Shown here: positions 48,372 to 64,000 of the stretch, one piece after another | Layout: the number at the start of each line of letters is the position of its first letter | Numbering within the stretch: position 1 is the stretch's first letter | Assembly: GCA_029834535.1 (NCBI GenBank) | Contig: JAQMWT010000066.1 | Coordinates: 59,749-123,748 of the forward strand | DNA: 64,000 nucleotides | Source: Chrysophaeum taylorii | Lineage: Eukaryota > Sar > Pelagophyceae > Pelagomonadales > Pelagomonadaceae | Direction: 5' to 3' | Notes under the pieces: model-generated | The model's input: only the letters and a program-made list of their open reading frames with translations | Database searches by the model: none | What the model was told of the DNA's origin: nothing | Position numbers and translations under genes: made by a program

Positions 48372-48690
48372 TGTAGGTGAACTTACTGGGGCCAGGTGAA
48401 CTTACTGGGGTTGGAGATTGGGACTAGGTGAGCTGAGTGACCAGGTGAAACTGGGACCAGGTGAACATACTGGGGTTTTTAGAGTAAAGGGTTTTTAGAG
48501 TAAACTCAAAGGTTGGCGGCGCGTGCGGATCAAAGCAGCTTAGATTGGCGGAGGCGAGAGCGACGAGCTCAAAGGAGTTGGTGTGAGCTAGGTGAACTTA
48601 CTGACCAGGTGAACTTATATGAAACTTACTGGGACCAGGTGAACTTACTGGGGTTAGAGATTGGGACTAGGTGAACTTACTGGCCTGCAC
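48372..48690 (+). repeat. Spacer repeat cluster (core CAGGTGAACTTACTGG)
   Basis: About eight imperfect copies of a 17-20 bp unit interspersed with GGGGTTAGAGATTGGGACTAGG, plus a single-copy stretch (about 48480-48590) that also occurs inverted in the left arm at 34650-34770. It marks the outer edge of the arm. Confidence 0.8.
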
Positions 48691-48783: not shown

Positions 48784-49314
48784 TGTGCGGAGACGCGAGG
48801 GGTGCCTGGAAGGCGGAAGTGGATATCCCGCTGAGGGGTTCTTTTAAAGTCGACTGCTTAGAATTGGAGTGCGTTCTGCGACCTGACGACAGGAACAGCG
48901 GCAGCCTGCGGCCATCACTACGAAACCTCGGGAACCTGCTCCCTCCCGGGCACATGCTGCCCACTCTCTCACTTGACGTCCCCGTTTGAGCAGTCGCGTC
49001 TTTAAAACTTCGGAAGTCTACTTCTGCTGTGCTTCCTGTCCCGCCTATGGCGGCACAGAAAAACCACTCCCGACCCCCTGGTGACAAAGGGGGCACTCAC
49101 CGACTCGTCCTAGACCTCACTGAACGGGAAAAAAAAAACGCGGACTCGGGGTCGGGTATGCTCGCCACACGCCTTGCTCACGCTCACCAAGCCTCTCAAC
49201 AAGATGGAGAGATGGTATATTGTAGCAAGAAAGGAAGGGAAAGGCGTCCCGTTGAAAGGGTATTAAGCCTCGAGAAACAAGGGTAAGCCTTAGCGGTCAG
49301 GAGTTGCCGCCACA
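48784..49314 (-). repeat. Probable 3' LTR of element 1
   Basis: The inner boundary is firm: GAGTTGCCGCCACA at 49314 matches the LTR end of element 2 and is followed by the same GGACTCCCCTGG polypurine-tract complement. The outer boundary TGTGCGG at 48784 is a guess from the TG...CA rule and the size (about 531 bp). Its partner LTR is outside the window. Confidence 0.45.
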
Positions 49315-49344
49315 GGACTCCCCTGGTGAGAATACGAGCTGCCC

Positions 49345-50088
49345 TCAGCGAGTCCGGCGAGAAGCACGAGCCTTGGCTGAATGAGCTTCTCGGGAACGAA
49401 TCTTGTTGTAGGCACGTTCAACGACAGGATCAGGAACGCGTCCACCACGTAAAGTGAACTTAGGAATCAACACATCGATCTCATGCGAGGCGAAGTCGGT
49501 GACACAAGGAGTGGTACTGGTGTTGACCTTGGTCTTGTCGGTGAAACTGTGACCGTCCACGTCCTTGTATTCCGGATTAAGCTTGCGAGTAGAGAGATGT
49601 GAGGTAGGCTTGTAATAAGAAACCTTGTCATGGGGACCAAGATCAGCATAGAAATGCAGAGCGACTCGATCATTCACAAAATCATAGGGTTCATAAACTT
49701 CAGCGACATAAATCTCCTTTCGCCAATCGGACCGTTTGTTATCCGGAATCCGAAAGATAACACACTTACCATGCTTGTAATCATCCCGAAAGGTCTCCTT
49801 GGGCTTGGGCACAGCTCGATCGACCACTGGAGAAACCATCACAGGGGGGATCTGGCTAACATGAACACAACGGCGTTCAGGAGGAGAATCAAGAGACTCG
49901 ATCCTGTAAGTGACCGGAGACAAGCGTTCCAAAATAACGAATGGACCGCGCCATTCCGGTCGAAGCTTGTTCTGAAGAAAAGGTATGTAGAGCAGAACAT
50001 GTGAACCTTCTTCATACTCCACATCGACATGGTCCGCATTGTAGGCGAGACGTTGTTTACGAAGAGCCTTCTCACGAGCGTCGTTCAC
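49345..50088 (-). pseudogene. Element 1: integrase C-terminus and C-terminal extension
   Basis: 247 codons. The GPY/F-like module (GSHVLLYIPFLQNKLRPEWRG, RLSPVTYRIESLD) is followed by a 100-residue segment (GKCVIFRIPDNKRSDW, IYVAEVYEPYD, RVALHFYADLGP) similar in layout to Tudor/BAH-like chromatin readers. It is cut off from the integrase core by an in-frame TAA at 50098-50100. Confidence 0.8.
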
Positions 50089-50097
50089 CGTAGCGGT

Positions 50098-51843
50098 TTA
50101 GAACTTCAGCCTCTCGCGAGTCTCTGCCACAACATCGGAGCGAGTTTTCGGCAGGCGGCGGACATCAAGATCCATAATCGTGTAATCGGCTGGCAATAAA
50201 GGCTGCCGGTTAAGACGAAGCATGAAAGGTGAGATCTGAGTTCCCGGAATAAACTTACGATTGTAGCAAAAGGCAATGTACTCCGCGAATTCGGGCCATT
50301 CCGTGATCTTGCGGTTTTGAAGGCACGCACGGAGGAAAGCCTTGACAAAGCGGTTGACCCTTTCCGCAGGATTAGCCTGAGCATGATGCGGAATCGTGGT
50401 ACTATACCGAACATTGAAGAGATGACAAAACTCTTCCATCAACTTGTTGACGACCTCTTTCCCATTGTCGGTACGAATCCTCTGAGGTATATAACCTTTG
50501 AGTAATATATTCGCGACAAAAGACTCGAGGATTGACTCAGCAGTCTTATGGTGTAGTACGTCAAGAATCAAGAAATGAGAAAATGGATCAAAAAAAACAA
50601 TGAGATATGTCTCGGGACCAGCACTGGGCAAAGGTCCAAACAAATCCATACAAAGGACGACACAATCACCATCATACACCGGTTGCTGAAGCAGACCTGC
50701 TCTCTTTGGTTCAGGCGTACGAGCTTTCTTGCACACTATGCAACCAGCAATGTAAGCACCCACCTCATTAGACATATGAGGCCACCAAAAACGTTCAAGT
50801 ATCGACTGCACTGTACTTTGACGACCCATATGACCACCATTGAGAGGTGTGTCATGGTACAATCGGATGATGCGCGTCCGTAAAGTTCGGGGTGCGACTA
50901 TCATCGGGTGCAAGTCGGGTGCGGCACGGTAGAGAACTCCTTTCACCACTTGATAGCGATAATTGGCTCCGTACCGACGAAGAGAATGGCCCTGAGCCAT
51001 GCGATAGCGAATGTCCTCGCAAGTAGCATCAGTGATCTGCTCTTTGGCTATCTCTTCCAAAGTCAAATTATCTGGAATCTGGTCGATGTACTCTTGGTAA
51101 TCATCGGCATCACGGAAAATACTAGGCTGGGTCTGAAGTCGTTGCTTCTAACGTTGTTTCGTAGCATGAGACGTGACCAATTGCATCGGATCATCGAGGT
51201 CTTCCTCCTCTTCCTCCACAGGCAACTCAGTCGTAGCAAACGACAGAATGACATGGCACCCAGGTAAAGGTACTCCTTTATCATCAACAGAACGTGGGAG
51301 TTCTTGGCACACTAGATACGCGTGGTTCAAGGGTTCACCAAACTCGTCCGTCTCGGTGACATGATCTATAGGATTGCGAGAGAGACAGTCAGGGATACTC
51401 ATTCCCGGCGACTTCCCTGGTTTGTAACCCAATTCAGGATCAAAGTTGGCGAGCCGCATCGCCCATCGAGCCAACTGCCCAGACGAGTGCTTCGCCTTTC
51501 GTAAAAACGTCAAGTTGCGATGATCCGTTTCAAGGATCGTCTTGTGACCTTCGATATAAGAGCGGAAATGCTCAAGAGAAAGAATAACTGCCAGTAGCTC
51601 TAGCCGGCGAGGCTCATAGTTCCGCATCTCTTTCGGCACAGCTCGGCTCCAATACTCAATTACTCGTTCCTCTCGTGTCACCTTGCCGGTTTCGTTCTTG
51701 ACTTCCACGAGCTGAAAAAGATACGCGCCCTGACCATTCTTGGAAGCATCCGAGCGGATCTGAAAAGGAAGATCGTAGTCAGGATTATAAACTCCGCGAG
51801 AGTCCACCAAAGCTTCGATGATCTTGTCCATGCCTTTTGGCAC
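50098..51843 (-). pseudogene. Element 1: RNase H and integrase core
   Basis: One frame interrupted by a TAG stop near 51148. The RNase H part shows IRSDASKNGQGAYLFQL, RRLELLAVILSLEHF and LETDHRNLTFL (D-E-D). The integrase has the HHCC zinc site (YHDTPLNGGHMGR ... CIVCKKAR) and the DDE triad: Asp in MDLFGPLPSAGPETY, Asp in IRTDNGKEV and Glu in NPAERVNRF. This order (RT, RNase H, integrase) is Ty3/gypsy-like. Confidence 0.88.
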
Positions 51844-52745
51844 TCAGGCGTCCACTCAAACTTATCGCCTTCAAGACACAATCGCCTAAGCGGCTCCACA
51901 ATCTTCGAATAATCCTTCACATATCGGCGGCAATAGTTGCTCATGCCAATGAAAGATCGAATCTGGGTCTTCGGGGACGTATTAGGCAACGTACCAGGAA
52001 TCGGCATCTGCTGCAACGCTTCTAACGTCGTGGGATTCGGCTCCAAGGCTTCCGGAGTCGAAATATGTCCCAAAAACTCGATTTCATCCTTGAGGAAGTG
52101 GAACTTCGAAGTTCGTCCACTATATCCTCGCTGCGCTAAATGGCACAACACTTCAATCAAAACTTGTAAATGTCGGTGGAGTTCATCCGATCCCATCATA
52201 ATATCGTCGACAAACGCGACCAAGTCCTTATACATCCTTGTGGACAAATCGCTAGCCATCTGCTTACAAAAGAGAGCTCCTGCTGTTTTTACCCCGAGAG
52301 GCGAGCGCAAGAAACTATGGGCTCCAAGTGGACTAACCATCGTAACGGCGTCCTGAGCAGCGGCGTCCAAACGTAGGTTATGATAACCCCATCGAATATC
52401 AATGCACGTCCGCCAACGGCGCATGGCAAGAAAAGCCAAAGCATCATCTTGACGAATATTCGGCCAACTGTCATTGACCAGGTGATCATTGAGCTGACGC
52501 AAGTCAATTGCAGCACGAAAAGCATTCGACGTCCCGGCCTCTGCTCCCTTCTTAGGCAGCATAAGTACAGGGAATCCCCACGGAGAGTTCGCCGGTCGGA
52601 TGACTCCATCGCGACACCACTCAGTGATCTGCTTTCTGAGACACTCGGGCTTTGCTGGCGTCAACCTATAAGGCGTCATCTTGATCGGTCGTGGGTTTGC
52701 GTCTTTAAATCGTAGAGAAACCGGTGGCGAGTCCACGTGTCTCAT
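51678..52745 (-). pseudogene. Element 1: reverse transcriptase
   Basis: 355 codons with the gypsy RT blocks: TPYRLTPAKPECLRKQI, GVIRPANSPWGFPVLMLPKK, FRAAIDLRQLND, WRTCIDIRWGYHNLRL, and the catalytic box AFVDDIMMGS, where the usual Tyr is Phe. It continues IEFLGHIS and RSFIGMSNYCRRYV. A frameshift near 51840 separates it from RNase H. Confidence 0.9.
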
Positions 52746-53187: not shown

Positions 53188-53998
53188 TTAGTGGGATCCT
53201 GGAGATCATCTTTTGACACCCACTTACGACACGAGTACGCGTATTTAACAGCGGAATCTGTACGTGACGAAAGGCGGGGTCGGAGATTCGCAAATACTGC
53301 TCAAAGGATCGATCTGTCGGGCTCAACGCGGTCGGCAGGACTTCGCCACTTTGGCGGAAACCTCTGGTCACGGAGTTGTGCAGATCGACTGCTAAAATCG
53401 CAAGAGTGTCCGGAGGGACGACAGACGCTAAATGTTTGAACGAATCTGCCTTAGGCAAGCTAGCCCAATCATTGTCCACCGGCATCGTGAGCAACTCGGC
53501 CGTCATCTCGAGAGTCAAAGGCTGAGTGTCCGAGCGATGCGGTCCCAAACGAAGAGGAACTCGCGTAACGGTGTAAGCCGTATCTGTTGCTTCTCGGGAC
53601 GAGCCGAGATTATTCAGCTGGAGCAGGTGGCGTTCATGAGCATAACCTAAAGCTGCAGCAAATTTTTGTTGCATGTTCACAAATGTCTTCGGAGCCTCTT
53701 GCAAGTGCAGTGGGTGACTGGAAACCAACAATCGCACGCGAGAGCTCATCAGAGTGGGCGTGATATCATGAAAATTGACGACGTACACGTAAGGGTGTAA
53801 ACGCGCTATATAAGAAATAATGGACGCCTCCTGTTCAATCAGCCACATCATGAAACCAGCGATTTTGCACAGCTTCATCGTCCAGTTAGTGGCCGTAACA
53901 CCCCTGCCAACATCTCTGGATGTCAAGTTGCAGAGTGCTGAATGAACGCGGGGTGGAGACGCTATACACATCGACGAAGACCATTCCGCTTCAGGCAT
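53069..53998 (-). pseudogene. Element 1: C5-methyltransferase-like domain, motifs IV-X
   Basis: 309 codons. In C5-MTase order: motif IV region CIASPPRVHSALCNLTSRD, with Arg where the catalytic Cys of PPC is expected; motif VI-like WLIEQEASII; motif VIII-like MSSRVRLLVSS; a target-recognition-sized variable stretch; motif IX-like LTLEMTAELLTMP; motif X-like LASVVPPDTLAILAVDL. A 1-nt frameshift at 53991-53998 parts it from motif I. No longer able to act as encoded. Confidence 0.75.
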
Positions 53999-55295
53999 TT
54001 GCCTTGATCAATCGGAGGGTCGAGTCATATAGTCCGCAGAGCGTGTGCTGAACCACAGGTATCTTCGGAAAATTCTTCTGATGAACCTTGTTGGCAGCTA
54101 TTGAAGAGTCAAGAGCAAGGACGACTCGAAACGACGTCCCGCACAACTCGTTCGCTCGTTGCAGTCCTAAAGTACTTCCTCCGGCGCCGCTAAAGAGTAA
54201 CACAACCTTGCGATACGTGATCGGCACCCAGTGGACCTTTTCAAACCCTCGGCGAATCTCACCTTCTGTAACTTCTCGGCATTTCTTTTCCTCCTCGTCA
54301 GTTCGTCGGTCGAAATCGTCGTTACCGAACGATTCTTGACGAGAATTCTTCTTCTTATCGGCAGAAGGAGACGCCTTCTGCACCGAGCTCAAAAGCATCG
54401 GTTCGGGAGCCGCATCGCCTTGAGTCAGATGGCCTGCGACCGAAACAGTGCATGATAGGTTAGCCTTGTTAGATTCGGCTTCACCATCCTTCGTTAAATC
54501 GTCGACCGTCTCAGCATTCAGCTCGTCATCAAAACGAACAATATCGCTCAAAGCAAGGACTTCACCTTGAGTAATCACGGTCGGCACATCCTGGGTAGAG
54601 GATATCGCCACTCGAGCTGCGAACTTATCATGATCCTCAGGAGAAGAACACATTCCATCGACTACCACGAGTTTCTCGTACCCAGAGGACGTAGCAACGA
54701 AAACTTGCCCGGTTTCCATGGGCTCTGAAAGAGCGACTGGCACGCAGTAGGTGCGCCCAGGCTCGACCTTCATCGTGCGCGCAGCATAGGCTATCACTTC
54801 ATAGGCATCGCTGTTCGAACTTTGAGAAGGCGTAACTGGAGGGACCCCCCAAGTCGTCGAAGCCCCCGCTCGTTTCGGCGGTGGACGCTGGAGGTCTTCA
54901 ATCTTGCACAAGCGAGCGTAGACTCGGTTCTCAACTGTGCTCAGGCTCTTTTGCATCGCATGGTGCTGTTGCCCATAAACCTGAACTACCTCGGGGTTGC
55001 GCTCGTCATAAAAACGCTCAGCTAATCGTTCATTTTCGCGACGTCTCCGCTCGAGGTCTTCACGAAGTCGACTTCGGGCTGCAGATCCGCGCTCAATCGT
55101 AACACGCTCGCCACGGTCCGGGGTCGTTGGACTCAACGGCGAAAAAATGGCAGTATCCGGAGGCACGTCAGGGGGGAAGTCAGCAACGTCGACTGCCTCG
55201 GCCTCTTTTAATTCACCTTCCTCGCGGCCTATCTCAGGGGCGGCGGGAAGAACTGGAGGAGATTCTTCCTCACGCACGTCTGCGTCTGTATCCAT
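53991..55295 (-). pseudogene. Element 1: gag/protease-side segment and methyltransferase motif I
   Basis: 434 codons. The N-part is acidic and Arg-rich; the middle (EVIAYAARTMKVEPGRTYCV, GQVFVATSSGYEKL, VPTVITQGEVLALSDIVRF) is a conserved domain shared with element 2, possibly dUTPase-like or structural in fold. The C-part starts the methyltransferase domain: VLLFSGAGGSTLGLQRANEL (motif I, SAM-binding FSGAGG) and VVLALDSS (motif II). It ends at a frameshift. Confidence 0.75.
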
Positions 55296-55630
55296 ACTGT
55301 ATCAAAATGTCGATGATGAATCTCGAAACACGTCCGGATCCGATCACTCGAAGTAGTCCACATTGATTCCAACAACGCTGTCTGTCGCTGTAAAAACAGC
55401 ACTCGCGGAATTCCTATCCGCTGGCAATTCAAAAATGCCCGTGGGTAGCGATCCCACTCGCTAAACAGCTTCCGCCGTTCAGCTATACCAAAATCAATTC
55501 CCGGGAAACTGCGCTGCGATGTCAAACTCGCACGCGTGTTCGTCGTCACTCGGATCGCACGAACACAAACAACGTTCGCGTATATTCTCAACGCAAACCG
55601 GTCCACTGGAACTCCGTGTGCTTGATCAGG

Positions 55631-55966
55631 TGTGGCGTAAGGAGAATTTTCGGGGCTACCTGGCGTGCCTTCGAATCCTGGCTCGCCGATCGCGTCCGTG
55701 CCCTTGGTGGGATCACTGGACGAGGATGGCCGTTCTCCCGCCACGCGACCACAAACAACTCCTGCGCCTGGTCCTCTCAACTTGAGGATCGGCTGTTGCT
55801 TTATGATCAAGGATAATCGAAATCAGAAATCAGGGTGACATATGTCACGGAAAAGGAAGATGATGTCATAGAAAACTCTGACATCATCGGAACGGAGTAG
55901 GGTGCCCCTGAAAAGGGGGGGCCCTAGAAGAGGGGTAAGCCTTTGGAGGCGGGAGTTGCCGCCACA
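55631..55966 (-). repeat. 3' LTR of element 2 (336 bp)
   Basis: Bounded by TGTGGCG and CGCCACA, a perfect 7-bp terminal inverted repeat. On the minus strand it contains an open frame from 55810 (MIIKQQPILKLRGPG) that leaves the LTR in the frame corresponding to gag (SPENSPYAT). Confidence 0.93.
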
Positions 55967-56006
55967 GGACTCCCCTGGTAAGAATTCGAGCTGCCCCAGC
56001 GAGGTG

Positions 56007-57641
56007 CTAGCGCGAGGAGCGCGGCTTCGCCTTACGAGCATCTCGTGAACGAATCTTCTGGTAAACGCGGGTGATGATCGGTTCAGGAACTCGACCACTG
56101 CGTAAAGTAAACTTGGGGACCAACACGTCAATCTCGTGCGGAGCGAAATCCGTGACACAAGGAGTTGTGTTGGAGGAAATTCGGGACTTGTCGGTGAAAC
56201 TTCGACCTTCAACGTCCTTGAATTCGGGCTTGAGCCTGCGGTGCGAAAGGTGAGAGGTCGGCTTGAAATAAGCGACATCATCATTCGGACCCAAATCGGA
56301 ATAGAAATGTAGAGCGACACGATCATTTTGGTAATCGTAAGGCTCGTAAACTTCGGCAACATAAATCTTCTTGCGCCAATCAGAGCGCTTCCGGTCAGGA
56401 ATCCGGAAAACAACAAACTTACCGTGCTGATAATCATCACGGAAGGTTTCTTCGGGTTTGCGGATGGTTTGATCAACGATCGGAGGTACCATCACCGGCG
56501 TGATCTGACTTACATGAACACGTCGTTCTTCGGGCGGAGAGTCGAGAGACTCAATCCTATAGGTGACCGGGGAGAGGCGTTCCTTGATGATAAACGGCCC
56601 TCGCCATTCCGGTCGAAGTTTGTTCTGAAGGAAAGGGATGTAGAGCAAAACGTGCGATCCTTCCTTGTATTCAACATCAACATGATCAGCATTGTAAGCC
56701 AATCGCTGTTTCTTCAAAGCTTTATCACGAGCCTCGCGGACGATCTTTGTATAATATTTTAATCGTTCGCGAGTCTCGGCGACTGCATCAGAGCGAGTCT
56801 TCGGCAATAATTGTGTATCAAAATCCATGAGCGTGTAGTCAGTCGGTAGCATCGGCTGACGGTTCAGGCGTAGCATAAAGGGAGAAATCTGCGTGCCTGG
56901 AATAAACTTGCGGTTGTAGCAAAACGCAATATAATGAGCAAAGTCAGGCCAATCCGTGATGTTCCGGCCTTGAAGGCAAGCACGGAGGAAGGCCTTGATA
57001 AATCGGTTGACGCGCTCAGCCGGGTTCGACTGGGCATGATAAGGAATCGTAGTTTGGTATCGTGTGTTGAAGAGATGGCAAAACTCGCGCATCAACTTGT
57101 TCACGAACTCTTTACCGTTGTCGGTACGAATCATCTGGGGCAAGTAGCCCTTGAGGAGAATGTTAATGACAAAAGACTCGAGGACAGACTCCGCGGTCTT
57201 ATCGTTCAAAACATCCAGAATCAAGAAATGCGAGAACGGATCAAAAAATACTAGAAGATACGTCTCGGGACCAGCGCTGGGCAAGGGTCCAAATAAATCC
57301 ATGCAAAGAACAGCACCATCACCATCGTAGACGGGCTGCTGCAAGAGTCCAGCTCGTTTCGGCTCAGGCGTACGAGCTTTCTGACAAACTAAGCATTCAG
57401 CAATGAAGACTCCAACTTCGTTCGACATGTGGGGCCACCAAAATCGTTCTTGGATAGCCTGGACAGTACTGTGACGTCCCATATGACCACCGTTAACCGG
57501 AGTGTCATGATAAAGTCGAATAATGCGTTTGCGCAACGTAGCAGGTGCAACAATCATCGGGTGCAAATCAGCAGAAATGCGTCTGACCTTGGGCCATTCG
57601 GTAGCGAATATCCTCGCAAGTAGCATCAGATTCTTGCTCAC
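56007..57641 (-). pseudogene. Element 2: integrase and C-terminal extension
   Basis: 544 codons. HHCC zinc site (YHDTPVNGGHMGR ... CLVCQKAR), DDE core (MDLFGPLPSAGPETY, IRTDNGKEFVNK, NPAERVNRFIK), GPY/F-like module (GSHVLLYIPFLQ) and the extension GKFVVFRIPDRKRSDW with RVALHFYSDLGP. The upstream 25 or so residues present in element 1 are deleted with a frame change near 57.6 kb. The integrase itself is open. Confidence 0.88.
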
Positions 57642-60530
57642 GTGCGATCTCAGCGAGCGTCATATTATCGGGTATCTTATCGATATAATCTTTGTAAGCG
57701 GCTGCGTCCTTGAAGATCTGTGGCTCATCACGCGCACGGTTCTTCCGCCGTTGTCTCGTCGCGTGAGACGTAGCCAATTTCATCGGATCCTTTTCAGGGT
57801 CTTCGTCTCCGTCTTCCGGCAGTTCGGTCGTGATAAACGACATTATGAAGTGGCAGCCAGAGACGGGAACTCCTCGGTCATCAACAGGTCGGGGAAGCTC
57901 TTGGAACACTAAATACGCGTGGTTCAAAGGTTCTCCAAACTCGTCAGTCTCGATGACATGATCTATCGGGTTGCGGGAGATACAGTCAGGGATACTCATT
58001 CCCGGTGACTTTCCCGGCTTGTAACCAAGTTCAGGGTCAAAATTGGCGAGGCGCATCGCCCAACGAGCAAGCTGCCCAGACGAGTGCGTCGCCTTACGTA
58101 AAAACGTCAAATTTCGGTGATCGGTCTCCAAAACAGTCCGGTGCCCTTCAATGTAGGCTCGAAAGTGCTCTAGAGATAGTATAGCTGCCAGCAGCTCTAG
58201 CCGACGGGGCTCATAATTTCGCATCTCCTTCGGCACAGCTCGGCTCCAGTATTCAATTACTCGTTCTTCTCGAGTCACTCTTCCGGCATCGTCCTTGACT
58301 TCGACAATTTGGAAGAGATATGGTCCAAGTCCATCCTTGGAAGCATCGGATCGGATCTGAAAAGGCAGATCATAATCGGCGTGGTAGACTCCACGGGAAT
58401 CAACCAAAGCTTCAATAATCGTATCCCAAGCTTTCTGACACTCGGGCGTCCACTCGAACTTTACACCTTCAAGGCATAATCGTCTTAACGGTTCCACAAT
58501 CTTCGAGTAGCCCTTCACATATCGCCGGCAGTAATTACTCATGCCGATGAAAGAGCGTATCTGGGTCTTCGGGGAAGTATTCGGTAAAGTACCTGGAATC
58601 GGCATCTTCTGCAGTGCTTCCAGCGTCTTTGGATTCGGCTTCAAGCCTTCTGGGGTAGAAATGTGTCCCAGAAATTCTATATCATCCTTGAGAAGGTGGA
58701 ACTTCGAGGTTCGACCGCTGTACCCTCTCTGTGCCAAATGACACATCACTTCGATCAAAACTTGTAAATGTCGATGAAGATCGTCGGATCCCATCATAAT
58801 ATCGTCAACAAACGCAACCAAGTCTTGATACATCCATTTCGAAAGGTCGCTCGCCATTTGCTTGCAGAAAAGAGCTCCGGCTGTCTTCACCCCTAGAGGT
58901 AATCGCAAGAAACTGTGAGCGCCAAGTGGGCTAACCATCGTGACAGCGTCCTGCGCTGCCGTATCCAGACGAAGGTTGTGGTATCCCCACCTAATATCAA
59001 TGCATGTCCGCCATCGTCTCATCGCGAGAAAGGCTAAAGCATCATCTTGTCGAATGTTTGGCCAACTGTCATTGACCAATTGATCGTTGAGCTGACGTAA
59101 GTCAACTGCAGCACGGAACGCGTTGGACGTTCCAATCTCAGCTCCTTTCTTCGGAAGCATCAACACAGGAAAGCCCCAAGGTGAGTTGGCCGGACGAATG
59201 ACTCCATCCCGGCACCACTCGCTGATCTGCTTGCGGAGACAATCGAGCTTCGCAGGCGTCAATCGGTAGGGCGTCATCTTAATCGGTCGCGGATTCGCGT
59301 CTTTGAATCGTAGAGACACAGGAGGCGAGTCCACAGGTCTCATAATCGGGTCGAAAAAGGCCCAAGAATATTGCACACAGTGACGGAGCATCAGTTTCGC
59401 CTCATCGTCTAAGTGCGGGTTGTCAGGAATTCCCAGCTCCTGCACAACCTTGTCAACTTCTTCCTTCGTAGGAATTTTAACTTTCATTGCTTCGTTGTCC
59501 TTGACATGCTCAGGAGTCTGCGGCAGTGGTGCACCCTCGACATCGCGCGGCGCATCTTTCCATGGCACATCGAACTTTTTCTCGTATTTTAGCTTCACTT
59601 CCGGGTGGCTTTTGTTGATCCTCTCGCCTTTGACACGAACACTCGGCTCGCTCTTAATCTTCGGTTCCCGATCTCGCTCAGGATCTGGCGGAACGTCTAA
59701 ATTTGGTTGTCGGGGGGGCCCAGCAGAAGAAGCATGAGACGTCCCCGGCTCATCTGTTGCAGGCGGAATCAACGGTACCTCTGGAGGTTTCCATTTGGTG
59801 TGATCTTGAAGATCATCAGTCGACACCCATTGTATGACACGTGTGCGCGTGTTTAACAGCGGAACTTGTACGTGACGAAGGGTGGTTTCATCAATTTGTA
59901 AATAATAATCAAACGGTCGGTCTGCAGGACTCAACGCTGACGGCAAAGCTTCGCCGCTCAGGTGAAATTCCTTGGTCACAGAGTTGTGCAGATCGAGCAT
60001 TAATAAGGCCATCGTGTCAGGTGGCACGACGGACGCCAAGTGTTTCAACGAGGTCGTCCTGGAGAAGCCGGCCCAATCAAAATCAGGGGGCATTGTCAGC
60101 AACTCCGAAGTCATTTCCAGATTCAGAGATCTGTAATCGGAACGGTGCGGTCCTACGCGAAGCGGGACACGCGTAACAGTATAAGCTGCGTCTGTCGCGG
60201 CTCGTGATGATCCTAAATTGTTCATCTGAAGTAAATGTCGTTCGTCGGCGTAACCAAGTGCTGCGGCGAACTTCTGTTGCATATTCTTGCAAGTCTTTGG
60301 AACTGCACGCAAATGGAGCGGATGGCTGGAAACCAACAATCGCACGCGACAGCTCATCAAACTGGGAGTTATGTCGTAAAAATTGACGACGTATACGTAC
60401 GGGTGCAAACGTGTAACGTAAGAAATAATCGAAGCCTCCTGCTCTATCAACCACATGAAGAAACCAGCCATCTTGCATAATTTCATCGTCCAGTGGGTAG
60501 CGGTAACTCCTTCCCAACATCTCTGGAAGT
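57568..60530 (-). pseudogene. Element 2: methyltransferase C-half, linker, RT and RNase H
   Basis: One long open frame (in-frame real homology from about 60530). It starts within the methyltransferase (WLIEQEASIISYVTRLHP, SCRVRLLVSSHPLHL, LNLEMTSELLTMP, LASVVPPDTMALLMLDL). A linker follows, then RT with RAAVDLRQLND, WRTCIDIRWGYHNL and LVAFVDDIMMGS, and RNase H with IRSDASKDGLGPYLFQ and LETDHRNLTFL. This part is intact and in better condition than in element 1. Confidence 0.88.
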
Positions 60531-60910
60531 CAAGTTGCACAGAGCGGAGTGTACGCAGGGTGGCGACGCGACACACATCGACGACGACCATTCCGCGTAG
60601 GGTAAATAAGATTCGATCAACCGTAAGGTTGTAACATAGCGACCACACAATGTGTGCTGCACCACAGGAATATTCGGAAAGTTCTTGTGGTGGATCTGGT
60701 TGGCGGTGTCCGACGCATCGAGTGCTAGCACGACTCGAAACGACGTCCCACACGTTTCGTTGGCTCGTTGGAGACCTAAAGTACTGCCTCCGGCTCCACT
60801 GAACAGCATCCCCACCTTGCGATAAGTGATTGGAAGCCATTGAACCTTTTCATATCGGCGGCGGATCTCCGCTTCGGTGATCTCGCGGCATTTCTTTTCA
60901 TCTTTTCTGA
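60483..60910 (-). pseudogene. Element 2: methyltransferase N-half, motifs I-IV
   Basis: Carries motif I MLFSGAGGSTLGLQRANE, motif II VVLALDAS and motif IV CVASPPCVHSALCNLTSRD with the Pro-Pro-Cys catalytic triplet intact; the usual following Gln is Val. The frame is left of the gag frame by a shift near 60.91 kb and right of the C-half by a one-base deletion near 60.53 kb. Repairing two single-base events would restore continuity, which indicates recent loss. Confidence 0.75.
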
Positions 60911-63640
60911 CCTTCGAGCGAAATCGTCGCTGCCTTCAGGTCGTTTGAGGGTGGACTTGTCCGTCATAGCGGTCATAGCGTCCTTCTGCACCGTGCTCAG
61001 CAGCATCGGCGGGGGAGATTCGTCGCATCGCGTCAAATGACTAGCGACAGAAACGGTGAAAGAAAGGTTCCCCTTGTCGTATCCTTCTTCACATTCTTTC
61101 GTAAGTTCGTTGATCGTAGAGACGTTCAACTCATCTTCGTACCTAACGATATCACCAATCGCAAGGGCTTCGCCTTGAGTGACGATCGTCGGCACTTCTT
61201 CCGTGGCAGTAATTGCCACCCGAGCAGCGGACCGGTCGCGCTCTTCGCCAGAAGAACACATTCCTTCGACAACTCCCAACTGCTCGTTCTCAGCAAACGT
61301 AGCGACGAAAACCTGTCCTTTTTCCATAGGCTTCGACAAAATAACCGGTAGATTGTACGTTCGACCGGGCTCGATTTGAATCGTGCGCGCGGCATAAGCG
61401 ATTACTTCGCGCGCGTCTTCTCCCGGAGCTGGGGAGAATTTGGTCGTAGCATGTCCCCGCGTAGCCATGGCTACCGTACGTTCCGGCGGCGGGCTTCGGA
61501 GATCTTTAATCGTGCTCAAACGAGCATAAACTCGAGTCTTGACCAGGTCGAGACTCTGCCGAAAGGCATCGTGTTGATGATTGTAAATCGGTACGGTTAT
61601 CGGATTCCGATCGTAATTAGACCGGAAGGTCACGATTGGTGCATCGACTCGTTCATCCTTAACTTTAATCTTCTTGCGCCCGTAGACGACTTGGGTTCGA
61701 CAAAAACAGATCCGATCATGGGGAAAATCCACAATGGCTCCTAAAACTCGTATATCGCGCCCTCCCAACAGGAACAGATAATTCGTATCTGCTACAATAG
61801 CAACAATGGGAGCGGCAAAGTCATCGGCGAAAGCGACCCGAAGGGCGATCCAACGATGGATCGTCGTCGTATTCAATCCTGATCCGTACAGCTTGCGCTT
61901 AATCGGAAGTTCGCCTTCATCGAAAATCAACTGATCTCTGGTCAACTTTTTGACCATTTCTCGGCAAATATAAGAAACATCTGCCATTCCATCGACACCA
62001 ATGGTTGTCGAGAATTTCGGTCCGTCACGATTCCTGTAGATGTGACAGGCTATAAACGTTAAAGTACCCGTATCTAAGCAACTGAGGGTAATCAAATCAT
62101 CTTCGATCGTCTTGCCATCTCGCGGCGTCAACGAAGTGTGAGCACATCGGGCTCTGAATCGCTCGTCTCCGGGGTTGGGCATCGATACCGCGGCTTGAGC
62201 TTTCGTATTATCTGTTGTTGGCGTCTTCGCCATAATGCTCGCGGAAGCCTCTTTATCTGGCGGCTTTCGCTCTTCCTCCAAGACAATCTCCGAGGGAATC
62301 TGTGCTGGTAGGGGATCCTGGTCTTCGTAGTTCACGGAAGCAAAGGACCCCTCCCATAAATCATTCATTTCGTCTTTCCAGACTGCATCTGTAAATTCAT
62401 TCGTCGCCTGCTGATCCTCATCAGCATCGGCGATCGGTTCCATGTCAGCTGCGGCTTTGAGTCTGCAGCTGCGCGGTTGTTCTGGTGGCTTCTTCAGCAA
62501 GAAATTCCGAGCTTTCGTCCACCAATCCTGCAGGTTCCACATCTGCTCGTCTTCGTCACACTTGAGAACGCTGCTTATCTTCTTCATAAATCTATCCTTT
62601 TCTTCCGGCGGCGTATCCGTGTCTCGATCCGTAGTAATCGAAACCGTTTCGGGGGGGTCCGCAGGAAAAGATGGCGTCGTCCCCGACGTCAACTCTATCG
62701 TAAAATCGTCGTCTGCCATACTCGCGCTTGTCATAGTCTCATCCGACGAATGCGCGCCCGAGCTATCACTGCAGAAATTCATGTCTGGCTCACAGCCAGT
62801 TCGGTCGCCAACGGTCGTCTCTGGAGGGTCCAAAGATAAGCCGATGGCATCGAGGGCTTCCTCATCAAAAATAAACGGTGGGTCGTCCATGGACGACTCG
62901 TCCAATAACGTTAACGTAGACACTGGTTCACAGAGTGTAGCTTCTTCATCTTCCGAATCTGAATCGCCTTCCCAGTATCGTGTAGCTTCAAGTTCCTCGC
63001 TCGAATCTTCGAGCTCATCGCTCGACATCTGCTCATAAATCTGTGCCAAAGACCGACGATTGGTCAGCACGTCGTTGGGTGGCTCGTCCATCGGTGGGCG
63101 AGCAAGATCTTCGAATGCGGCCGCGGCAAGGGCGTCGGCTGCGTCGTCGGTGCGGGTGTCCGTGTTCGGGTACACCGTCACTCCTAATGGTAACTGTTGA
63201 CCGCAAGGGGTCGTAAATGTGAACGTTGCAGACGACTGTCCCGAGTCTTCTCGGTAACGACCATCGTCTGAATCTCGATCGCGAGATCTTCGTCGCCGGC
63301 GGCGGCGTGAATGTCGGCTGGAGCTCCTGCTATCTTTCCGTCGGCGCTGGCACGAGCTACTACGGCTCTTGTCGTGGCGTCGGGGGCTCCTGCTATCTCG
63401 ACGGCCTGTTCGTGTCGAAGACGATCGGCCGTGTCTATCTGTTAAGTGCTGCACGGTACTCATAACCGTGGTTAGCTGCGTGCTCATATCATTGAGTCTG
63501 CTCTGAATATCGTGAGCAGCGCTCGAACCGAAGGTGGCATTAGAACTACCGTCGTCACGCGAATGATTATCTTTCCTTTGTCGGCTCTCCCATCGTCCTC
63601 GCGAGATGGGCTTTCTGCCGTCTTTGATGTATTTGCACAT
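60776..63640 (-). pseudogene. Element 2: gag-like RS-rich and protease-like polyprotein part
   Basis: 954 codons. An Arg/Ser-rich, SR-protein-like segment lies near residues 70-130, followed by long acidic low-complexity sequence. No CCHC zinc knuckle was seen. Near residues 590-700 a retropepsin-like region reads GVDGMADVSYICREMV, in place of the usual D-S/T-G-A, then VAIVADTNYLFLLGGRDIRV. A conserved domain with element 1 (EVIAYAARTIQIEPGRTY) follows. The frame ends shortly after shifting out of the methyltransferase frame. The real start may lie in the LTR. Confidence 0.7.
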
Positions 63641-63676
63641 CGCTACATAATAGTCGTCGGGCTCGCCTCCACCACC

Positions 63677-64000
63677 TGTGGCGTAAGGAGAATTTTAGGG
63701 GCTACCTGGCGTGCCTTCGAACCCTGGCTCGCCGATCGCGTCCGTGCCCTTGGTGGGATCACTGGACGAGGATGGCCGTTCTCCCGCCACGCGACCACAA
63801 ACAACTCCTGCGCCTGGTCCTCTCAACTTGAGGATCGGCTGTTGCTTTATGATCAAGGATAATCGAAATCAGAAATCAGGGTGACACATGTCACGGAAAA
63901 AGAAGATGATGTCATAGAAACTCTGACATCATCGGAACGGAGTAGGGTGCCCTGAAAAGGGGGGGCCCTAGAAGAGGGGTAAGCCTTTGAGGCGGAGTTG
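63677..64000 (-). repeat. 5' LTR of element 2, cut by window end
   Basis: Begins TGTGGCGTAAGG at 63677 and matches 55631 onward for the remaining 324 bp. One of the four substitutions creates TAA where the other LTR has GAA in the gag-entry frame. The next internal bases on the minus strand (GGTGGTGGAGGCGAGC) occupy the primer-binding-site position; the tRNA was not identified. Confidence 0.92.

Follow-up and report, generated by a model that had tools for sequence, protein, structure and literature searches.

A predicted cytosine-C5 methyltransferase domain in the Gag-Pol polyprotein of a high-copy Ty3/gypsy family of Chrysophaeum taylorii

Has a retrotransposon of the pelagophyte Chrysophaeum taylorii (Pelagophyceae) taken a cytosine-C5 methyltransferase (MTase) into its own polyprotein, and to what use might it be put? 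The question is raised by a 64,000-nucleotide stretch of the 70.8-Mb assembly (G000:C66:59749-123748), here called the window. Two Ty3/gypsy long terminal repeat (LTR) elements lie in it, both on the minus strand: copy 1 at about 49.3-55.3 kb, and copy 2 from 55631 to beyond base 64000, where contig C66 ends. An earlier note on this DNA had reported C5-MTase motifs in order upstream of the reverse transcriptase (RT) in both copies, and reading of the frames confirmed this. The full motif set it ascribed to both elements is present in copy 2, whereas in copy 1 motif IV reads PPR, not PPC, and the catalytic cysteine is lost. Similarly, the proposed placement between protease and RT was seen in copy 2 and in an undamaged copy on another contig, but the protease segment of that undamaged copy found no match in copy 1. 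The halves of the domain do lie in neighboring frames, as had been noted: one frameshift splits each window domain, and both copies hold further shifts elsewhere. Judged by their sequence, both window copies are probably inactive, damaged members of a larger family.

A search for intact genomic copies found one undamaged element, on contig C5 (C5:520422-529622). Its single frame of 3067 aa has the order gag, protease, MTase, RT, RNase H and integrase, which is the ancestral polyprotein that had been predicted from the window. It follows that the frameshifts in the window copies reflect later damage or assembly error. The C5 element is bounded by a direct LTR pair (336 bp each, 100% identical) with the ends TGTGGCG..CGCCACA. 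Within the 2956-aa part of the polyprotein contained in locus L029, a DTG motif at residue 917 is followed by a weak PF00145 match (residues 1335-1390), RVT_1 (1890-2054), RNase H (2149-2261), H2C2 (2445-2503) and rve (2521-2614), the gypsy order. No Gag zinc knuckle was found in the part of the polyprotein read. The pol domains and LTRs are the grounds for the Ty3/gypsy assignment; target-site duplication is not among them, as none flanks the C5 element (ATGCT / AGGAG), the one element examined, and duplications can be lost.

Genome searches with the first half of the MTase, its second half and the RT gave at least 150, 132 and 131 matches, respectively. Merging of the two MTase sets, 150 first-half and 131 second-half rows with one short fragment left out, placed the gypsy MTase at no fewer than 193 distinct sites, a count that may be somewhat inflated by duplicate-looking contig pairs. 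Several element copies stand at near-equal offsets on contig pairs C10/C297 and C25/C521, which suggests haplotype or duplicate contigs. Among the matches listed, an MTase match lies within 2.5 kb upstream of the RT at 81 of 131 RT places. The earlier note had asked about copies lacking the region, and 10 of the other 50 RT places were examined over 2 kb upstream: six hold most of the MTase and three hold part of it, all in register. At the tenth (L053), the sequence ends before the MTase, with an opposite-strand MTase fragment nearby. This is, from its sequence, a high-copy Ty3/gypsy family with a single Gag-Pol polyprotein in which a predicted C5-MTase domain sits between protease and RT.

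The character of the domain was assessed on 21 sequences, namely the C5 copy and 20 places picked for open frames in both halves, a choice that favors well-kept copies. PF00145, the C5-MTase family, matches all 21 (best E 9.2e-7), although the first halves of the window copies score 21.1 and 17.0 bits, both under the 22-bit cut-off; TIGR00675 (dcm) matches 19 of the 21, far under its own cut-off. Across the 21, PPC, RVR and the motif VI glutamate never vary, and FSGAGG hardly does. The ratio of nonsynonymous to synonymous substitution rates (Ka/Ks) in the MTase has a median of 0.199 over 209 of 210 pairs (in the dropped pair, Ks was undefined or no higher than 0.02). Between the two gypsy subfamilies it is 0.073 over 68 pairs, with Ks saturated near 1.9. 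Comparison of copy 1 with the C5 copy gave 0.057 for the MTase, 0.024 for the RT, 0.045 for RNase H, 0.078 for the C-terminal tail, 0.119 for the linker and 0.209 for the pre-MTase stretch; for the integrase, Ks was saturated and the ratio not computable. In this pair, constraint on the MTase is weaker than on the RT and stronger than on either flanking stretch. In these copies, purifying selection acts on the predicted MTase domain.

Selection on the MTase suggests a benefit to the element, and its position after the protease suggests release from the polyprotein or packaging with the RT. The best explanation of the data as a whole, and one that we consider probable with some reserve, is that the Gag-Pol MTase methylates the nucleic acid of the element itself. 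Packaged in the virus-like particle alongside RT and integrase, the domain would methylate cytosines of the element during or just after reverse transcription. The element would write the mark once, the host DNMT5 would then copy it, and the new insertion would thereby look like resident DNA. Self-methylation of new copies that shapes host silencing, the role put forward in the earlier note, is a possible one. DNMT5 is described as a maintenance enzyme in the portion of PMC10538959 drawn on here. A genome search with PF00145, in which the best 123 of 474 candidates were scored, gave at least 57 matches. Two are host genes: DNMT2 (L001, contig C634, 360 aa, 100% identical to CTAYLR_008533, with ENV and CFT present) and a DNMT5-type gene (L002, contig C621; E 2.6e-143 to the solved chain 7r76). 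Another 52 belong to one MTase of Ty1/copia type (47 overlap copia-domain matches, two lie inside loci holding that domain, L026 and L015, and three were assigned by direct match); three are unchecked. DNMT5 and DNMT2 are thus the predicted host DNA methyltransferases detected, and others may exist.

Several observations weigh against this explanation. Canonical C5-MTases have Asp in motif III, ENV in motif VI and GN in motif X; the gypsy family has no Asp in motif III, IEQE in motif VI and AS in motif X. The PF00145 alignment covers only motifs I-III in the one member displayed, and in the whole C5 polyprotein the match reaches 18.9 bits against a 22-bit cut-off. An AlphaFold model of the domain, with a mean predicted local distance difference test score (pLDDT) of 35.6, is too poor to show the fold; both of the AlphaFold models made stayed under a mean of 36, too low for a fold comparison to carry much weight. 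The nearest profile family is DNMT2, known for tRNA rather than DNA. Finally, CpG observed/expected ratios are 1.13-1.33 in three gypsy copies and 1.13-1.47 in six 8-kb blocks from the rest of the window, and in the 16 of 20 gypsy copies under 12% divergence, transitions are rarer at CpG than at other C/G positions (ratio 0.47). For copia, four loci have observed/expected ratios of 1.02-1.08, below every host block, and the transition ratio is 1.24 (9 of 17 copies under 12% divergence). A CpG-depletion footprint of self-methylation was therefore not seen in the gypsy copies, a result of limited meaning because the host sequence itself is not depleted and the test is weak. Composition and transitions give no sign of heavy CpG methylation in the gypsy copies and at most a slight one for copia.

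The missing footprint and the nearness to DNMT2 would both fit a captured DNMT2, a tRNA C38 methyltransferase, that acts in the particle on RNA, either the primer tRNA or the genomic RNA of the element. DNMT2 is a free-standing tRNA enzyme. We compared the gypsy domain with a DNMT2 profile built from at most 100 of 120 proteins (300-460 aa) and a Dcm profile (74 bacterial or archaeal proteins from 80 loci). The gypsy profile scored 75.3 (probability 96.8%) against DNMT2, in an alignment limited to motifs I-IV, and 39.1 (52.5%) against Dcm; 40 column shuffles of the gypsy alignment for each profile reached at most 25.2 (3.9%) and 21.2, respectively. Against single sequences, the median was 39.0 (best 44.6) for DNMT2 (n = 12) and 24.5 (best 33.1) for Dcm (n = 15), with at most 20.8 for DNMT1 and DNMT3A (n = 2) and 10.7 for the host DNMT5 (n = 1). 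The SG.GG start and an AN....NF stretch after motif II are common to the gypsy domain and DNMT2/TRDMT1. A search of the PDB gave DNMT2 as the best MTase at a nonsignificant E of 0.24, the top row being an unrelated protein. In a first tree of 40 rows (12 DNMT2 of 15 picked, 15 Dcm), the gypsy domain joined DNMT2 with support of 98/92.

Other results pull away from this reading. The gypsy branch is very long, and a join with Dcm was not clearly rejected in the first tree (p 0.053). Because long branches met in that tree, it was rebuilt without the copia rows; DNMT5 was also omitted, and DNMT1 and DNMT3A were brought in. The placement with DNMT2 then became weaker: the gypsy branch arose between DNMT2 on one side and every other family on the other, with support of 83/80 for the split with DNMT2 and 87/95 for the split with the others, and a DNMT3A join was not rejected (p 0.25). 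The ENV and CFT motifs, seen in L001 and DNMT2 sequences, are both absent from the gypsy domain sequences; the domain is therefore placed nearest to DNMT2 without being classed as one. DNMT2 is the likeliest source of the domain by profile comparison, and the trees do not settle the matter. A captured DNMT2 acting on RNA is, in our estimate, rather improbable but the most serious alternative to methylation by the gypsy MTase of the element's own nucleic acid as set out above.

The copia-type MTase permits a broader proposal. It lies between protease and integrase in Ty1/copia elements of the same genome (118 search rows, 111 distinct places). Of 20 ten-kb loci around its matches, 19 contain copia integrase and 14 copia RT (a locus may stop short of the RT); an example is the 1952-aa frame L009:3597-9452 (PF00145 at 349-475, a weak rve at 1016-1110, RVT_2 at 1686-1933). 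PF00145 matches all 18 copies aligned (best 2.8e-12), which are those of 20 without inner stops, and Ka/Ks has a median of 0.177 over 153 pairs. The domain has LPC and ENV motifs. Toward its end, 9 of 12 aligned copies also show an IRYATL..EIAKF..ANAV stretch compatible with motifs IX-X; two of the three copies without it are shorter. The copia profile scored 50.9 (88%) against Dcm and 39.0 (56.8%) against DNMT2, but 40 shuffles reached 39.8 (54%) against Dcm; for a longer copia domain, the Dcm score was 50.0 and 30 shuffles reached 19.8. A single capture behind both MTases was considered and set aside, as the gypsy and copia profiles show no similarity (0.8%; 0.6% with the longer copia domain), yet the tree does not reject it (p 0.07). 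The copia MTase thus appears nearer to bacterial Dcm and not detectably related to the gypsy domain. Two LTR superfamilies may have captured unrelated C5-MTases independently, each after the protease, with a DNMT2-derived RNA MTase in gypsy and a Dcm-like one in copia; a host with only a maintenance enzyme would then receive its de novo cytosine methylation from the two. We regard this combined proposal as unlikely.

The domain could also be non-catalytic and retained in Pol for nucleic-acid binding or in a structural capacity, comparable to DNMT3L, a non-catalytic partner. The changed consensus in motifs III, VI and X and the lost cysteine of copy 1 would agree with such a role, but invariance of PPC, the glutamate and RVR throughout the 21 copies is hard to explain without catalysis, and the C5-MTase family tolerates changes outside these three. 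We think a non-catalytic role distinctly improbable. No relative of the gypsy domain was returned from 5.8 billion proteins, searched at E <= 0.001 and at 0.01. Proteins of about 607-1625 aa lay outside these searches, which detect only relatives sharing 5-residue words, so that absence is not shown by the null result. Viral contigs yielded 42 and 11 pattern-matching stretches, none related to the gypsy or copia domain. Over motifs I-IV, an MTase fold is expected to alternate strand and helix. That the domain is no C5-MTase, and resembles one by chance within a long linker, would accord with the weak Pfam scores of the window copies and the empty protein search, but it is very hard to credit given PF00145 matches in all 21 copies (and weak TIGR00675 matches in 19), shuffles that stay far below the real DNMT2 score, seven motifs in order, and a strand/helix alternation over motifs I-IV that even the low-confidence model retains.

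The features of the two window elements are collected in Table 1. The stretches of copy 2 at 61523-62182 and 60920-61522 are 99% identical to the undamaged C5 copy, and a Pfam scan of the 972-aa frame that contains them gave no match. Eukaryotic genes are found elsewhere in the window, where Pfam matches were obtained for each of seven long frames scanned (adaptin, Tudor-SN, myosin and UbiA among them). Two copies of a 63-bp repeat (48380-48442 and 48623-48685), 90% alike and containing AACTTACTGGG units, lie beside copy 1 at its end.

Table 1. Features of the two Ty3/gypsy elements, in window coordinates.
Feature	Position	Strand	Remarks
Copy 2 5' LTR, cut by contig end	63677..64000	-	97.6% identical to 55631-55958 over 328 bp
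Copy 2 stretch directly after 5' LTR	63640-63676	-	starts GGTGGTGGAGG, as in the C5 element; the two elements differ thereafter
Copy 2 frame: Gag-like part, retropepsin-like DTG (about 62066-62074), pre-MTase stretch	60779..63694	-	stop-to-stop frame, 972 aa
Copy 2 MTase first half: motifs I (FSGAGG), II (VVLALD), IV (SPPC)	60510..60902	-	frame -3; PF00145 E 2.3e-4
Copy 2 MTase second half: motifs VI (LIEQE, IEQE), VIII (RVR), IX (LNLEMTSELL), X (LASVVPPD)	59902..60513	-	frame -2, the RT frame
Copy 2 reverse transcriptase	58492..59241	-	RVT_1 E 1.7e-12; segment map
Copy 2 RNase H	57982..58491	-	RT_RNaseH E 5e-24
Copy 2 integrase (H2C2 zinc and rve core)	56718..57557	-	Integrase_H2C2 E 1.1e-18, rve E 1.9e-12
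Copy 2 3' LTR, 336 bp, TG..CA	55631..55966	-	97.9% identical to the 336-bp LTR of the C5 element
Copy 1 pre-MTase stretch	54312..54914	-	55% identical to the same stretch of the undamaged C5 copy
Copy 1 MTase first half: motifs I and II	54000..54293	-	frame -2; PF00145 E 0.0042
Copy 1 MTase motif IV (PPR) to motif X	53294..53998	-	frame -3
Copy 1 reverse transcriptase	51894..52643	-	92% identical to the undamaged C5 copy
Copy 1 RNase H, split over two frames	51385..51893	-	segment map
Copy 1 integrase, one internal stop	50065..50904	-	83% identical to the undamaged C5 copy
Copy 1 internal end/3' LTR junction (remnant or diverged LTR)	49281..49352	-	88.9% identical to the copy 2 junction over 72 bp

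MTase-bearing retrotransposons have been published, and the gypsy element with its DNMT2-nearest MTase, together with the copia element, is a variant of this known kind of capture. That a few algae and dinoflagellates carry such elements, as the earlier note stated, is borne out by the parts of de Mendoza et al. (2018; PMC5890265) drawn on here. Its further view that an MTase inside pol upstream of the RT would be unusual does not stand, because KnitGypsy-Dnmt3 of the charophyte Klebsormidium nitens has a DNMT inside the Gypsy Pol open reading frame (PMC5890265). Like the present family, KnitGypsy-Dnmt3 is of Ty3/gypsy type and has, within its Pol polyprotein, a C5-MTase under purifying selection; it differs in its DNMT3 and DIRS-like repeats, whereas the Chrysophaeum elements have DNMT2 as nearest profile, ordinary direct LTRs, a pelagophyte host and at least 193 places. 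The same source describes DIRS and long interspersed element (LINE) carriers in Symbiodinium, hence several element classes in one genome. SymbioDIRS-Dnmt3 and SymbioLINE-Dnmt are likewise high-copy retrotransposons with a C5-MTase, DNMT3 or, for SymbioLINE, an orphan group, but they are DIRS and LINE elements, whereas Chrysophaeum has LTR elements of gypsy and copia type with a gypsy MTase that is DNMT2-like by sequence. Two SymbioDIRS MTases methylate CG in yeast, and the proposals made there are self-methylation of complementary DNA and, for the LINE, methylation of RNA (PMC5890265). We searched titles and abstracts of the open-licence literature for DNMT2 in retrotransposons, pelagophyte MTase retrotransposons, C. 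taylorii itself and Gypsy cytosine-MTase polyproteins, and the present case was not described there; the main text of the C. taylorii genome paper (PMC10366177) contains no word beginning "transpos". A copia-borne MTase may or may not already be in print; the case described in the portion of PMC5890265 cited is a Gypsy one.

The C. taylorii genome was produced from Nanopore and PacBio reads, according to the part of PMC10366177 drawn on here, and the existing raw data might yield methylation maps if the signal files were kept. A host with DNMT5 makes the gain of an element from its own methyltransferase directly testable. With this family, the known range of MTase-capturing retrotransposons grows beyond dinoflagellates and charophytes to include stramenopiles. 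Such capture is seen in two LTR superfamilies of one genome, and the gypsy domain suggests that another MTase family, DNMT2, can be captured.

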